NCBI GenBank assembly: GCA_021820965.1
Contig: JAKACZ010000017.1
Span: forward strand, 1-64,000
DNA: 64,000 nt
Origin: Bacillota bacterium
GTDB lineage: Bacteria > Bacillota > Sulfobacillia > Sulfobacillales > Sulfobacillaceae
Reading direction: 5' to 3'
Positions 4,182 through 61,775 of this stretch are shown here, piece by piece (position 1 is the stretch's first letter; each line of letters begins with the position of its first letter). The position numbers were made by a program, and so were the translations under genes. The notes beneath the pieces are model-generated. The model worked only from the letters and a program-made list of their open reading frames with translations, had not been told where the DNA came from and ran no database searches.

Positions 4182-4618
4182 TCATACTCCATGGTGCTTG
4201 GATTCCGGATCCCAGGATACAAACTCAGGATCCCACGCACCTCGGATCAAGAGATGCTGATGAGGCGCACGCGGCCCGATGAAGAGATCGTAAATGTCCG
4301 CCTCGCGATCCCCGATGAGCACGGTGTGAATTCCGGCCGGCATGCCGGCCGCCACTTGCTCCTGGATTTGCAGCCACCGATAGCTCTCTTTGTCTTCGAT
4401 CGGGCGTTGCTTCCGATCAGCACTCTTGCCCTGCGTGTCGGGGTCCCGGGCCCACAGAATTTCCGCCACGAGTCCCAGCGGGACGCCGTCCGCGGTCATC
4501 GCTAAGGCACTATGCAGTAAGAGTCCTTGGTCCGGACCCGACCCAATGGGCCCGAGACCTTCCGTCGCCGGATGATTGGTATAGTTAAGATAGGTCGTAT
4601 CCTGAGCGATCAGTGCGC
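4182..4618 (-). pseudogene. IS4-family (Tn5-like) transposase fragment
   Basis: The minus-strand frame gives LIAQDTTYLNYTNHP, GLLLHSALAMTADGVPLGL, WARDP, RPIEDKESYRWL and GDREADIYDLF. The order matches Tn5/IS4 transposases, with the first aspartate in QDTT and the second in GDREADIYD. The N-terminal domain and the C-terminal glutamate region are missing. It is a fragment lying head to tail with the other remnants. Confidence 0.75.
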
Positions 4619-5116
4619 CTGTAAGTCGCGTCTTCCGACGCGACGGGGGTGGAATCGAAATCTACCGCTGGCACGGTAGTGGGCTCGATAGGACAATGGC
4701 CCATCCTCACCCCGCTTATCCGAACGGGAAACCCGACGGGGAGTGTCGCATGCGGGGAAAAGCACAAGTCAGCCAACCATCCGGCTGCGACTGCGTGTCG
4801 AGAGGACAGGAACGGTATAAGGATGAAGGCTGTACTGCCTAAACGACAGTCAGAGGGGCTTTATCAGGGGCTACGGCGGAAGATGGTTACAACCGCCGCA
4901 TGGGCACGAGGTGTCGTTGAGCTTGAAACTCGGCATGGTCACGGAGCTCTCGTAGTAGTCTGAGGCCGGGAAAGCCGGTCACATGGCCAAGGAGAGCAGT
5001 GGACTCTCCCCCATGCTGTAGAGCCGATGCGTGAGGCATCTCAACCGCTTTGATGGGGATGGGGGAACACTGGAACAGTGGCAGACCCTCTGCCCGCCAC
5101 ATGATGAGTCCATGGA

Positions 5117-56275: not shown

Positions 56276-56486
56276 CGGGGTTGCTGTAGCAAACGACCGA
56301 AAATGGCAATGGCCATACCGAAAGCCATGCTTTCGCCCGAAAATAGTCCCGCGCGGCCCCATTTCTCGCCTGAAGGAATCACGGAAACTTCTTGATCTTG
56401 TGCCCAACCTCACGAATGGCGAATTCATTACATATCAACGAACGGCAGACTTATTGCCATTTTTGTTCCAATGATACAGGAACCCC
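56276..56486 (+). repeat. Long direct repeat, left copy
   Basis: A 211-bp sequence starting CGGGGTTGCTGTAGCAAACG and ending GATACAGGAACCCCA. It is repeated nearly identically at 61557-61775; the main difference is an 8-9 bp gap in TTCTTGAT...TTGTGCCC. It directly precedes the truncated GH25 gene. No coding function is evident. Confidence 0.85.
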
Positions 56487-57082
56487 AACTGCACCTGGCA
56501 CTAAGAGTTGGTGGCAAACGATTCGCAGTCAGAACGGCGTGCGATTTGGAGTGATCAAAGCCACCGAAGGAATTTCTTACGTAAATCCCTACGCCCAGTC
56601 AGCGTGGGCTGCCTGCAATGCGGTGAATGGTGAAAGTGGCACCGGGCTTTACCATTTTCTTGATTGGCAGTACTCAGGTACAAAACAGGCTAATCACTTC
56701 TGGAGTAAAGTGCAATCGCTTACGAACCCGACATACAACATTAAGGGCAGTATTTTAGCGGTGGATATCGAAGAACCCAATGGCAGTAGTTCCACAGGGA
56801 CACCCTCGGTCACTGTTGTCAATGACTTTATCAATGAGCTATCCGCAAAACTCGGCGGTTTCTTGGGCAACCTGGTGATTTATGCCAACAAGGATACATG
56901 AGTGAGACTATTGGGAAACCCCACTAATTGGTCCGACATTGCCATGTGGCTCGCCGCAATGGATGGCGAATCGTATTGCCCCCCTTACACCTTTTTGGTG
57001 GTTGGGTCAACTGGTCCTATATGCAATATGGCATTGCCACTTTAGATGGGGTCCCCACCGATTTAGATGAGATGAATGTCTA
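56487..57082 (+). pseudogene. GH25 muramidase remnant
   Basis: The frame gives NGVRFGVIKATEGISYVNP, GLYHFLDWQ and AVDIEEPNG, which are the GH25 lysozyme core with its D-x-E motif, then stops after VIYANKDT at a TGA (56901-56903). The remainder continues in other frames to GGWVNWSYMQYGIATLDGVPTDLDEMN. The N-terminus, including the first GH25 aspartate, is replaced by the direct repeat. It is a truncated, frameshifted wall hydrolase. Confidence 0.8.
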
Positions 57083-58037: not shown

Positions 58038-58555
58038 TTATCGCTTCCACGGCCACCATGAGCGTTTTTGGGCTTGCGCGTGGTCTGCTGCCTGTTGTTG
58101 CATGGCGCGAATGGCCTTCATCAACTGATGGTCTCGGGCGTCCAGGTGATCATCAATGACGCGTCGCAATTGTTCCGTTTTTTGGCGGCTTTCCGCCACT
58201 TCCTGCCGCAAAGGGCCATCTCGGTGGCGATGGCCGTCATGGCTGTGGCCAGGGATTGTTGCAGGGTTTGCAAGGCTTCGGTGGCCGTCATGGCCATATC
58301 ATGGCCATCGACCGCCACCGTGACCTGCAGGCCGCTTTCGGATAACGCGCCCTCGATCCGTTCCGCGTTCCACCCCGCCTCATACCACTCTCGGATCTGT
58401 TGGAGAATAGATATCACGGATTCTGCCACCAAGACGCGCCGGCCCTGCCGACGGGTCTGAAGATGATGGCCGTGAAGTTCCAAATACCGCCGGAGGGTCC
58501 GTTCGGGGATTCGTGTCTGTCGTTCGATCTCGCCTACGGTTAGCCAATCATCCAT
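58038..58555 (-). pseudogene. MerR-like HTH regulator, probably frameshifted
   Basis: The N-terminus WLTVGEIERQTRIPERTLRRYLELHGHHL is a MerR/excisionase-like helix-turn-helix. The annotated frame runs to a poor C-terminus. A one-base shift near 58215 instead gives RQEVAESRQKTEQLRRVIDDHLDARDHQLMKAIRAMQ, a good coiled coil ending SWWPWKR-stop at 58038. A single-base deletion in GGGCCC would explain it. Either a recent pseudogene or a sequencing error. Confidence 0.65.
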
Positions 58556-58632
58556 TTCAACCACCTCGTGACCGGGATTCCGTCGTCATGCCGTCAGGAT
58601 ACTCCAATCCTTGATTTATTCAGATATTTTTG

Positions 58633-58656
58633 TGGCCATGGCCATAGCCATGGCCA
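58633..58656. promoter_or_regulatory. 10-bp palindrome upstream of the MerR-like gene
   Basis: TGGCCATGGC-cata-GCCATGGCCA is a perfect 10-bp inverted repeat 78 bp upstream of the MerR-like start and within the divergent intergenic region. It is a plausible operator for that regulator. Confidence 0.45.
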
Positions 58657-58851
58657 TGGTTCGGCCACTATCGTCATGCCATCTTAGGTTGAACATAAGC
58701 TAGTTGCTTCCTTGCCCGAAAATTCCACAAGCGCGCCTACTTACCGTAACTTCGGGTTTTATGGCAACGTTATACATTTACCAGAAAATGGACAAGATGG
58801 GAGGCCGTTGCTGAAGGTCATACCCCACCCACAAATTCGAGGAGGGAGAAC

Positions 58852-59190
58852 ATGGCGAAGTCTGTCGAAGAGCTCTGTATCCAGGACTGTTTATTAATTG
58901 CCCCGTGGATTGGCATTGACTTTGCTCAACAAGGTGTGTGGCGTGGAACACGGTTTATCCCTTTGCCGGCTCGAACCTTTGCCATCTTAAGCTGCCTTGC
59001 GCGGCACCCCAACACGGTCATGGCAATCGATCACCTGCTGGCGATCGGGTGGCCGGGGGAACTGCATGCTCCCAGCGACTTATCGCGGCATATTCACCGG
59101 ATTCGTCAGGCTATTGAAATTCACCCAAAACAGCCACGAATTCTGGTGAACCGTCGGGGGGTGGGGTACTGCTTTCGGGATGGCTCTTAA
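58852..59190 (+). CDS. Stand-alone OmpR/PhoB-type winged-helix DNA-binding protein
   Basis: A 112-residue Trans_reg_C domain. PLPARTFAILSCLARHPNTVMAIDHLLAIGWPG is the domain core, and SRHIHRIRQAIEIHPKQPRILVNRRGVGYCF is the recognition helix and wing. There is no receiver domain or sensor kinase nearby. GGAGGGAGAAC precedes the ATG. The four 11-bp-spaced repeats just downstream (59220-59259) are the expected type of binding site. Confidence 0.85.
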   Translation: MAKSVEELCIQDCLLIAPWIGIDFAQQGVWRGTRFIPLPARTFAILSCLARHPNTVMAIDHLLAIGWPGELHAPSDLSRHIHRIRQAIEIHPKQPRILVNRRGVGYCFRDGS

Positions 59191-59219
59191 CGTTTCGCCT
59201 CCCCGATGAATGTCCGAAA

Positions 59220-59276
59220 AGTGTCTAACAAGTGTCGATCAAGAGTCCTCCTAGTGTCGATTTCGGGCCCTATGCT
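59220..59276 (+). promoter_or_regulatory. Pho-box-like tandem repeats and promoter of the DUF1906 gene
   Basis: AGTGTCT, AGTGTCG, AGAGTCC and AGTGTCG start at 59220, 59231, 59242 and 59253: 7-bp repeats with 4-bp spacers. A TATGCT -10 lies 11 bp after the last repeat (59271-59276) and no -35 box is present. This is the layout of OmpR/PhoB-activated promoters. Confidence 0.7.
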
Positions 59277-59335
59277 GAAGATGCCTTCAGATGGAGAAGG
59301 CATACAAGCGTTTGATAAGTGGAGGTGGATTCACA

Positions 59336-60148
59336 ATGGCATGGGCAGTAGACACGGTGGATTCTTTGGCTAGCATCGATTGGGCTGCGTTCTATAACTG
59401 GAAAAAGGCTTGGCCTCAATGGGCCGGTCGTTATTTTTACGGCGGGGCGGATTGGTATTCCGGAGAGTTCACCACGGCTAAAAAGAATACTGATGGAAAC
59501 CTTGTACGAATAGCGCCGTTACAAGGTGGGTTATCCGGCCATGAGAAAACCGCAGGAATCGATGGACACAATTGGGGAATTTCCGATGCGACAGCAACGT
59601 GTAAAAGCATCATTAGCGCGATTGCAGCTAAGCAACTGACCCTCCCCTCAAATGGTGATCCGGTCATAGTTTGGTTGGATGTGGAACCCGGAGTTAAGAT
59701 CGCGCCAGCCTATTGGGCTGGTTGGGCGAACACGGTGTTCAACTACGACTATAATGGCGTACTGCCCTTCCTTCCTGGCATTTACACCCAGTTCACGCCA
59801 TCGGGTGGGCTATGGTATCCCCAGTCGTCTGTTCAAAACTGCCTAAATACTGTGTGCGAGTATTGGCCGGATGATGAATACACGTGCTATGGGCTCTGGA
59901 CGGCTCAACCCGAGGACTGCAGCTATGCGAGCGATCCAACAGCCATCCCTGATTGGTCTGTATTCGGCAGTTTCACGCAGACCAGATGTGGCAACAAGTT
60001 CCCTGTTCCCCTGTACCTCTATCAGTATATGGAACCGGGGTCGGCATTAAATATCTGTGGGGTCAAGGGATTTGCTGGCGGACAGAACCTGGACCTCGAT
60101 AGTTCGGATAATCGGGGCGGTCAAAGTTATATGCTGTCGATCGTGTAG
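59336..60148 (+). CDS. DUF1906 glycoside-hydrolase-like protein
   Basis: A 270-residue protein of the DUF1906/Rv2525c-like TIM-barrel group related to GH25. WAVDTVDSLASIDWAAFYNW and GRYFYGG are at the N-terminus, VIVWLDVEPG is the acidic strand, and FAGGQNLDLDSSD ends the barrel. No signal peptide is visible. GGAGGTGG precedes the ATG. It is probably activated by the upstream winged-helix protein; a peptidoglycan-related role is inferred from the fold. Confidence 0.82.
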   Translation: MAWAVDTVDSLASIDWAAFYNWKKAWPQWAGRYFYGGADWYSGEFTTAKKNTDGNLVRIAPLQGGLSGHEKTAGIDGHNWGISDATATCKSIISAIAAKQLTLPSNGDPVIVWLDVEPGVKIAPAYWAGWANTVFNYDYNGVLPFLPGIYTQFTPSGGLWYPQSSVQNCLNTVCEYWPDDEYTCYGLWTAQPEDCSYASDPTAIPDWSVFGSFTQTRCGNKFPVPLYLYQYMEPGSALNICGVKGFAGGQNLDLDSSDNRGGQSYMLSIV

Positions 60149-60165: not shown

Positions 60166-61338
60166 TCATCGTTGTGGGGTGCGGAGGGCCCGCCAGGCTT
60201 TTCCACCATCGTGTGTCATCCACAGCGCATAAGCATTGCCTGACGATCGAACGGCCAGGAGATCGCCATCACGGGGGCCAGAAAAAGTCACGCTAACCAG
60301 GTCCCACCGTGGTGGCGTTTTCCATGCGTCATGCCAGGTAATACCCGCGTCGTGGCTAACCCACAGTTGGTGGCCGACGGTAACCCATAACGACGTCGAA
60401 GAGGACGCTGTAAAGTCCCATTGCGTTGTCCCAACGGGGCCGGGAATCGCGCCGGTCAGCTTCCAACGGTTTGTCGCTTGATCACGGGAATAGATCGCCA
60501 GTCCGTTAAATGTGCCATTCACGGTTACGGGCAAAAAGCCGCGATGATCGCTCGGGAATACCGGAGGATACGAAGCTAACTCAGAATTCGCCCACTTGTT
60601 CGGTACAGGGAGGGGGCTCGATGACCAACGGCGTGCGTCGGCTCGGCCGTAATAAAGCCAGCCGTACCCGAGTCCCATCGTGGTCCCGGTTAGCCACAGG
60701 TTCCCCTGAGGATCGGCGGCCAGACCGGTTTTGTCCCCATAATACGGCAAAGCATGGGGCTGATTCGAGCTCGTGGCTAAACGAGTCCATGAGGCCCCTT
60801 CGTTGGTGCTAGTCCAGATGGCGATACTTTCGTTTCCCGAGGCGCCGGCCCCGTACGCGAGGAACCACCATCGGTGACCCGTGCCGGTAATGGACGCAGC
60901 ACTACCTAAAAACGACGGTAGCGTTCTCGCAATCCAGTGGTTTTGATGGAGGACCCACAGGTTCGTGCAACCGGTCACCACGGTGTCGAATCCCACATGA
61001 CTCAGCATCCCGGAGCCGGCACAGTCTATCGTGGGGTAGGGAATGACTAAGTGAGGACGTGATGTGGAGGGGCTCGTTTCAACAATTAGGTTGCGATGGG
61101 CATGAATAGTCACCCACGTACGGTGGTTTTGTAAGGCGCTGATTGCATGACCGACGAGAGATTGTGGATTCAGTGTGCGAGGAGCCATCGCCGATTGGCT
61201 AGCAGAGACGTTCGAAGGGGTATTTTTGATCGTCTGATGTTTTGTGGGTAGCACGGGTTTAGTGGGGCCGCACCCTGCTGAGATCGCACCGATGAAAACG
61301 AATGCCCCTATGATGCCGGCCACTCGAACGGATTTCAA
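60166..61338 (-). CDS. Lipoprotein with BNR/Asp-box beta-propeller
   Basis: A 390-residue secreted lipoprotein. The TTG start at 61338 follows AGAGGGT and gives LKSVRVAGIIGAFVFIGAISAGCG, a lipoprotein signal with an AGC lipobox. Asp-box motifs STNEGASW, SHDAGITW and THDGGKAW point to a sialidase/HCF136-like propeller. There are no catalytic sialidase residues that I can assign, so it may be a binding protein. A longer ATG start at 61428 is possible. Confidence 0.75.
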   Translation of the reverse strand: MKSVRVAGIIGAFVFIGAISAGCGPTKPVLPTKHQTIKNTPSNVSASQSAMAPRTLNPQSLVGHAISALQNHRTWVTIHAHRNLIVETSPSTSRPHLVIPYPTIDCAGSGMLSHVGFDTVVTGCTNLWVLHQNHWIARTLPSFLGSAASITGTGHRWWFLAYGAGASGNESIAIWTSTNEGASWTRLATSSNQPHALPYYGDKTGLAADPQGNLWLTGTTMGLGYGWLYYGRADARRWSSSPLPVPNKWANSELASYPPVFPSDHRGFLPVTVNGTFNGLAIYSRDQATNRWKLTGAIPGPVGTTQWDFTASSSTSLWVTVGHQLWVSHDAGITWHDAWKTPPRWDLVSVTFSGPRDGDLLAVRSSGNAYALWMTHDGGKAWRALRTPQR

Positions 61339-61556
61339 ATTACGTACCCTCTTTCGAACTTGGTTGCCAGTTAAAACGCTCCATTGGCCTTGAAGGTCAC
61401 TGGGCTTGAGTCTTCCCATCCCAGTCATTTTCTTCCTTCAGGCCGACTTGGCTACAGACAGCTGGCACCTTAATCCCTTGCCTTACTTACGTTTGGCGTG
61501 ACGTCCCCTTTTCCCTTCGGCGGATCTGCTGGGGGTTTCTCCACGGCGGTCAGTAC

Positions 61557-61775
61557 CGGGGTTACTGTAGCAAACGACCGAAAATGGCAATGGCCATACC
61601 GAAAGCCATGCTTTCGCCCGAAAATAGTCCCGCGCGGCCCCATTTCTCGCCTGAACGAATCACGGAAACTTCTTGATGAAGGTTCTTGTGCCCAACCTCA
61701 CGAATGGCGAATTCATTGCATATCAACGAACGGCAGACTTATTGCCATTTTTGTTCCAATGATACAGGAACCCCA
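61557..61775 (+). repeat. Long direct repeat, right copy
   Basis: A 219-bp sequence matching 56276-56486 almost base for base in the same orientation. The two copies bound a segment of about 5.1 kb. The right end meets an 11-bp direct repeat described at 61767-61861. Confidence 0.85.

Follow-up and report, generated by a model that had tools for sequence, protein, structure and literature searches.

What switches on a gene whose promoter has a −10 box and no −35 element that scores, and what reads the short direct repeats standing in front of it? The question is raised near position 59,200 of the 64,000-nucleotide stretch analysed here (hereafter the window), which comes from an acid-loving bacterium and where a small regulator gene, a row of repeats, a −10 box and a gene for a 270-residue protein follow one another on one strand. 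The first-pass annotation had described a compact one-gene switch controlling a secreted or wall-linked enzyme. We find the following features:

58852–59190, plus strand: stand-alone winged-helix regulator of 112 aa (Trans_reg_C, 4.2e-12, its sole Pfam family; family profile)
59209–59219, plus strand: array unit 1, AATGTCCGAAA, a weaker unit, absent from the first-pass annotation
59220–59230, plus strand: array unit 2, AGTGTCTAACA
59231–59241, plus strand: array unit 3, AGTGTCGATCA
59242–59252, plus strand: array unit 4, AGAGTCCTCCT
59253–59263, plus strand: array unit 5, AGTGTCGATTT, occupying the −35 place
59262–59265, plus strand: TTCG element, 9 bp 5' of the −10, common to clades with different arrays
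59271–59276, plus strand: −10 box TATGCT, a TAnnnT at fixed array distance in 28 modules (anchors chosen by eye)
59281–59303, plus strand: 5' leader hairpin ATGCCTTC/GAAGGCAT, mRNA start presumed, fold z −3.06
59321–59325, plus strand: ribosome-binding site GGAGG, read from the sequence
59336–60148, plus strand: leaderless 270-aa protein, probably a DUF1906/GH25-like barrel, via indirect homology
60166–61428, minus strand: convergent exported lipoprotein-like beta-propeller (BNR/sortilin-like; PF15902 at 1e-5, below cut-off), a recurrent partner

Regulator, array and promoter

The gene upstream of the repeats had been taken for an OmpR/PhoB-type DNA-binding domain without a receiver, and this holds: Trans_reg_C, at 46.4 bits against a curated cut-off of 26.2, is the only domain in its 112 residues. 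An N-terminal receiver is absent, and full-length response-regulator models such as YycF align to the protein only at model positions 149–229. The protein ends after the winged helix, without the BTA domain of SARPs, and its domain is Trans_reg_C, not the MerR-type winged helix of the BldC family. Its domain content sets the regulator apart from both response regulators and SARPs. A phage or plasmid origin of the regulator was considered and rejected, there being no viral-contig relative and no phage or plasmid match reaching 60% identity; where named, such matches are response regulators.

The AGTGTC-type cores start at 59220, 59231, 59242 (here AGAGTC) and 59253, exactly as first reported, and are preceded by a fifth, weaker core, AATGTC, at 59209, so that the array comprises five 11-bp units from 59209 to 59263 on the plus strand. 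Its cores agree with AGTGTC at 28 of 30 letters and the spacers between them differ, which argues against a recent tandem duplication. The pattern TGTC-N7-TGTC-N7-TGTC, with at most one mismatch, has five matches in the window against 0.23 expected, three of them in this array, and none of 100 shuffles of the window reaches five. With a four-unit pattern and up to three mismatches, the array is the sole site in its own 4.63-Mb genome, where the reversed control pattern has no match. In the same genome search, the region 5' of the regulator gene has no such array, leaving autoregulation through an 11-bp array unsupported.

TATGCT begins 11 bp past the last 7-mer of the array, and promoter scoring finds no sigma-70-type −35/−10 pair there; both the coordinates and the missing −35 of the first-pass annotation are thus correct. 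The leader hairpin has a perfect 8-bp stem and a 7-nt loop, and no RNA family was found between 54400 and 64000 of the window.

Repeats of the pho-box type end about 10–11 bp before the −10, and PhoB engages sigma region 4 at the promoter. The window promoter has this tandem form, with 11-bp direct repeats before the −10 replacing the −35, and the activator architecture of the OmpR/PhoB type proposed at first pass is supported by the tandem units, the last of them in the −35 place, and by the winged-helix regulator alongside. PMC3978041 gives the PhoB site as 22 bp made of two 11-bp direct repeats. The locus and its relatives thus share with PhoB/OmpR and pho boxes the winged-helix domain and tandem 11-bp TGTC-core units of which the last replaces the −35, but differ in having no receiver, arrays of about 4–8 units, a single private target and many paralogues with different unit sequences. 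SARPs of the AfsR type, as described in PMC10936776, likewise combine an OmpR-type domain with direct repeats, 11 or 22 bp apart, a 3' repeat 8 bp from the −10, a weak or absent −35 and engagement of sigma region 4. The window array has the same 11-bp period and a gap to the −10 of 11 bp if counted from the 7-mer, or 7 bp if counted from the 11-mer; unlike SARPs, its regulator lacks a BTA domain (112 aa), the repeats are more numerous and the host belongs to Bacillota, not Actinomycetota. Streptomyces BldC, according to PMC5859096, is also a very small, bare DNA-binding domain without an effector domain, binding head-to-tail and cooperatively on a variable number of direct repeats; its domain is of the MerR type, its repeat length is different and its role is pleiotropic, not private.

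We consider it very likely, from comparative sequence analysis, that the locus is a private activator–operator–promoter module, in which the 112-residue protein on the 11-bp array switches on the adjacent gene. Lacking a receiver, the regulator would bind DNA without phosphorylation, its copies arranged head-to-tail along the five units at intervals of one helical turn. The copy on the last unit would occupy the site at which sigma region 4 normally contacts a −35, and would engage that region, as SARPs and PhoB do. Bound regulator would recruit RNA polymerase to the −35-less TATGCT promoter and turn on the leaderless GH-like gene, whose product would have enzyme activity, while the 5' hairpin would act in mRNA stability. 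Were several units to fill cooperatively, the response would rise steeply with regulator concentration, so that the input would be whatever controls the regulator gene. A small MerR-like gene, divergent to the module (58121–58564, minus strand; below the Pfam cut-off), may matter for this control.

Arrays behind related regulators

Stand-alone relatives of the regulator are concentrated in one family. A 30-protein profile gives 47 matches of at least 66.7 bits, mostly in short open frames, in 17 of the 34 genomes of the family (Sulfobacillus type), and weaker matches fall mostly in frames of response-regulator length; a 12-protein profile run over 154 genomes of the class reaches E≤1e-22 in 16, all within the family. 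The hosts shown by named records are Bacillota bins, among which one bears the name Sulfobacillus, and, with one contig each, Alicyclobacillaceae bacterium I2511 (locus L104) and an Actinomycetes bin (L103).

The first-pass annotation had proposed conservation of the 11-bp repeats in relatives as a check, and the repeats recur. We scored the 300 bases behind 51 winged-helix ORFs (at least 50 bits; from 45 stretches and the window's end, two ORFs being pieces of the broken L023 gene) at periods 7–16, with 100 shuffles each. A period-11 array exceeds all 100 shuffles behind 27 of the 51, the two L023 pieces among them, and 11 is the best period in all 27; at 31 of the 51, five or fewer shuffles reach the array score. 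The same test on response-regulator genes was positive at 0 of 14, with scattered best periods. Behind the other 24 winged-helix ORFs, some of them broken or truncated, the array does not exceed all shuffles, and intact genes without a passing array (L026, L122, L123, L124, L034, L037 and L038) count against the array being universal.

Several arrayless cases were noted in passing. In the window's own genome, L027 (contig C98, about 4217–4660) carries a broken stand-alone winged-helix gene followed by a long transposase-like ORF, with no array detected (13 of 100 shuffles reach the score) and a TATGCT retained by eye, and the intact gene of L026 (C80, 4251–4610) lies, by eye, directly 5' of a gene for an exported BNR-like protein. 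Extra stand-alone winged-helix genes without an array of their own occur in L029 (4054–4413, minus strand) and as second copies in L116 and L033; those in L029 and L116 are directly upstream of a gene for a small MESLE-type protein. An array-like pattern match at L063 (G029:C66) was put down to chance, no −10 layout being visible by eye.

Aligning 28 modules on their TAnnnT −10 boxes, with anchors chosen by eye, reveals a shared layout; among these modules is L117, where only 21 bases separate stop codon and −10. T stands at −14 in 24 of 28 modules and at −25 in 21 of 27, and TTCG lies exactly at −9 in 20 of 28. Eighteen modules outside the TGTC clade favour T at −20, AA at −19/−18, G at −17, T at −14 and G at −11; the TGTC clade favours the same bases except at −20, where it is mixed. 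Unit positions −16, −15, −13 and −12 differ between clades, which together with the shared positions indicates a common scaffold carrying clade-specific bases. The arrays hold a fixed register to the −10 across modules. The first 40 nt behind the −10 are also more stably folded than their shuffles (mean z −1.51, with 16 of 28 modules below −1), whereas 84 control stretches further downstream are not (mean z +0.03, 10 of 84 below −1).

This register bears on whether the regulator activates at all. The same protein could bind the array and repress, its copy at the −35 position blocking polymerase and the gene being on without regulator, and the array does extend into the promoter spacer. We regard repression as improbable: no −35 scores at the window array, so the promoter should be weak unaided, and activators at PhoB promoters, too, stand at a set distance from the −10. 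The SARP promoters described in PMC10936776 have that activator layout as well.

Comparing modules shows what the array varies with. Over the 351 pairs that 27 modules form, regulators that are more identical go with more similar arrays (Spearman 0.445). Mean array similarity is 0.56 where regulators are at least 60% identical and targets unrelated (46 pairs, 12 of them involving the broken L023 piece), and 0.35 where targets are homologous and regulators less than 55% identical (17 pairs), against a baseline of 0.38 (254 pairs). The comparison supports an array that tracks the regulator rather than the target gene; since the module pairs lack independence and flanking DNA is inherited together with the regulator, this co-variation supports recognition without proving it. 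Regulator clades differ in their unit, which is about TAAGTGTCGGA, TAAGACTKCAA or TAAGGKGCAGA. In the regulator tree, from which L023 was left out, TGTC regulators form one clade (8 rows, support 100/98) and CTKCA regulators another (6 rows, support only 87/60). The L030_3576 regulator groups with the CTKCA clade and is 75% identical to that of L131; their recognition helices read DLYAQIHHLR and DLQDHLHRIR, respectively, and their units AAAGAATTcG and TAAGaCCTGCa.

These comparisons also weigh on a reading in which a global regulator, such as a true PhoB/PhoP-type response regulator, reads the array and the winged-helix neighbour is a bystander. In its core, the array is similar to CTGTCAT, the pho box of E. 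coli, and OmpR-type response regulators are present in the family's genomes. Such a role is nevertheless very improbable, as the array varies with the clade of the neighbouring regulator and not with the target, the window's own genome holds a single such array, and the stretches behind response-regulator genes have none. The private-activator reading is the one we carry forward, and the one-gene switch of the first-pass annotation stands as far as it concerns a receiver-less regulator with its own 11-bp array before one gene, by comparison with relatives; its secreted wall enzyme fares differently.

The controlled product and its convergent partner

Translation of the product more likely starts at the ATG at 59336 than at the ORF-list start, 59291, given the GGAGG at 59321–59325 and the homologue start MAWAVDT. 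By eye, the 270-aa protein has no signal peptide and opens straight into its domain, leaving the secreted or wall-linked location of the first-pass annotation unsupported. It has no Pfam match up to E 5, hence none to PF08924 (formerly DUF1906), and its relatives are rare, with any match in only 11 of 61 genomes. A link to that family runs through intermediates. The product aligns to L030:6990–7802 (hhalign probability 69.5, E 4e-5; reversed-sequence control 0.2; profile to profile, probability 51, E 1.5e-4), that protein to L031:1314–1979 (blastp 31%, E 3e-7), and the latter matches PF08924 at its cut-off (5e-6). On this chain, the product would probably be a DUF1906/GH25-like barrel; the DUF1906 kinship proposed at first pass runs through intermediates, without a Pfam match for the product itself. 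Direct profile links from the product to most other module products failed, and a PDB profile search of its family gave a chance-level match only. Two predicted structures have pLDDT 30 and 46; Foldseek with the latter finds nothing at E 0.001, its best match, not significant at E 0.21, being 1sfs, presumably a DUF1906-like protein.

Products of other modules match PF08924 (1.2e-30 and 1.7e-10) or GH25 (9e-23), and many have no match. Products of several related modules thus match Rv2525c/DUF1906 (PF08924) and GH25 lysozyme-like proteins, from which the window product differs in having no family match and, by eye, no signal peptide. Inspection by eye shows that several products share a D-x-E within a hydrophobic stretch and, late in the sequence, a QY...DLD; equally by eye, no GH-like first product of a module shows an obvious signal peptide. 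A phage lysis role was tried and rejected, endolysin PHROGs matching only the scanned GH25 and PF08924 members.

Other small genes accompany the modules. Membrane proteins of 88–97 aa, holin-like by eye and without a PHROGs holin match, lie near modules in L128 (6497–6760), L031 (265–528, minus strand), L127 (3718–4008, minus strand) and L131 (1638–1901). The product behind the winged-helix gene of L127 (4358–4954, minus strand) has a Cys-rich hydrophobic C-terminal segment that by eye resembles a bacteriocin; Pfam finds nothing in this product, and PHROGs nothing below E 0.05. One type of glycosyltransferase-like protein, with weak family matches, recurs inside modules (L131 3076–3663; L036 2505–3008, minus strand; L124 6325–6942; L117 3555–4139, minus strand; L030 938–1555, minus strand).

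Of the 28 anchored modules, 14 (window, L022, L032, L023, L024, L103, L104, L040, L041, L030_3576, L031, L117, L126 and L128) have a convergent gene of at least 140 aa downstream of their product gene or genes; judged by eye, 13 of these 14 genes begin with what resembles a signal peptide or lipobox. Ten of them were scanned, and 7 match propeller models (BNR, sortilin or YCF48) at E≤0.05, as does the window's; several of these matches lie below Pfam cut-offs, and the genes of L103, L126 and L128 match no propeller model. PF15902 has only four matches in the window's own genome, one of them the convergent gene. This recurrence suggests that the propeller gene is a functional partner of the module product, perhaps an immunity protein or surface receptor.

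Exchange of module halves

The window and L098 are 85.5% identical from 58039 to 59277, one base past the −10, after which their products differ; homology of L103 with L105 and with L031 stops 3–4 bases behind the −10, and that between the window and L102 stops at 59295. Endpoints just past the −10 point to recombination of regulator halves before different genes. A 2.7-kb block covering regulator, array, product and convergent gene is 93% identical between L103 and L104, whose bins belong to different phyla; this indicates that whole modules have moved between hosts, a binning error being possible for L103. That modules move in this way and that inter-module homology breaks just past the −10 could suggest that the repeats serve recombination or a mobile element (as an iteron or integration site) and are not an operator. 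We hold this reading to be the least probable of all, since spacer sequence varies, the units keep one phase relative to the −10, the −10 and the hairpin come next in that order, and, by eye, no integrase or transposase is regularly attached.

In the window, direct repeats of about 215 bp, 98–99% identical (56276–56487 and 61557–61775), flank a block made up of the module, the beta-propeller gene and the MerR-like gene together with a lipoprotein gene and a GH25 remnant. The GH25 gene (56392–56901; 3.3e-16) has lost its first ~20 codons and its regulator relative to L112, where its counterpart stands behind a winged-helix gene and array; judged by this comparison, it is a remnant of another module.

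The single parts of these modules are of known kinds; what is new is a family of many private, clade-specific, exchangeable activator–array pairs. Literature searches found no description of such modules, nor of regulated leaderless wall-hydrolase-like genes of acid-mine bacteria as a class. Tentatively, and with the odds against it, the modules may form a lineage-restricted library of exchangeable 'weapon' cassettes, in each of which a private, orthogonal activator and its array would drive a leaderless effector of lysozyme type, while the convergent exported beta-propeller would provide immunity or act at the surface as a partner. Regulator halves, cut just past the −10, would have been recombined before different effectors, giving each new effector a switch free of cross-talk with the rest. 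If the private-activator reading is true, these genomes contain some two dozen naturally occurring activators, small (~110 aa) and receiver-free, together with their matching operators; these would be built on one scaffold, TAAG--T--G at a fixed −10 distance, and vary in only a few bases and residues of the recognition helix. The protein–DNA recognition code of the OmpR/PhoB fold would then become directly testable, and the pairs would offer ready-made orthogonal switches for acidophiles and Bacillota, as well as marking out acid-mine bacteria as carriers of such a class of regulated leaderless genes for wall-hydrolase-like proteins.
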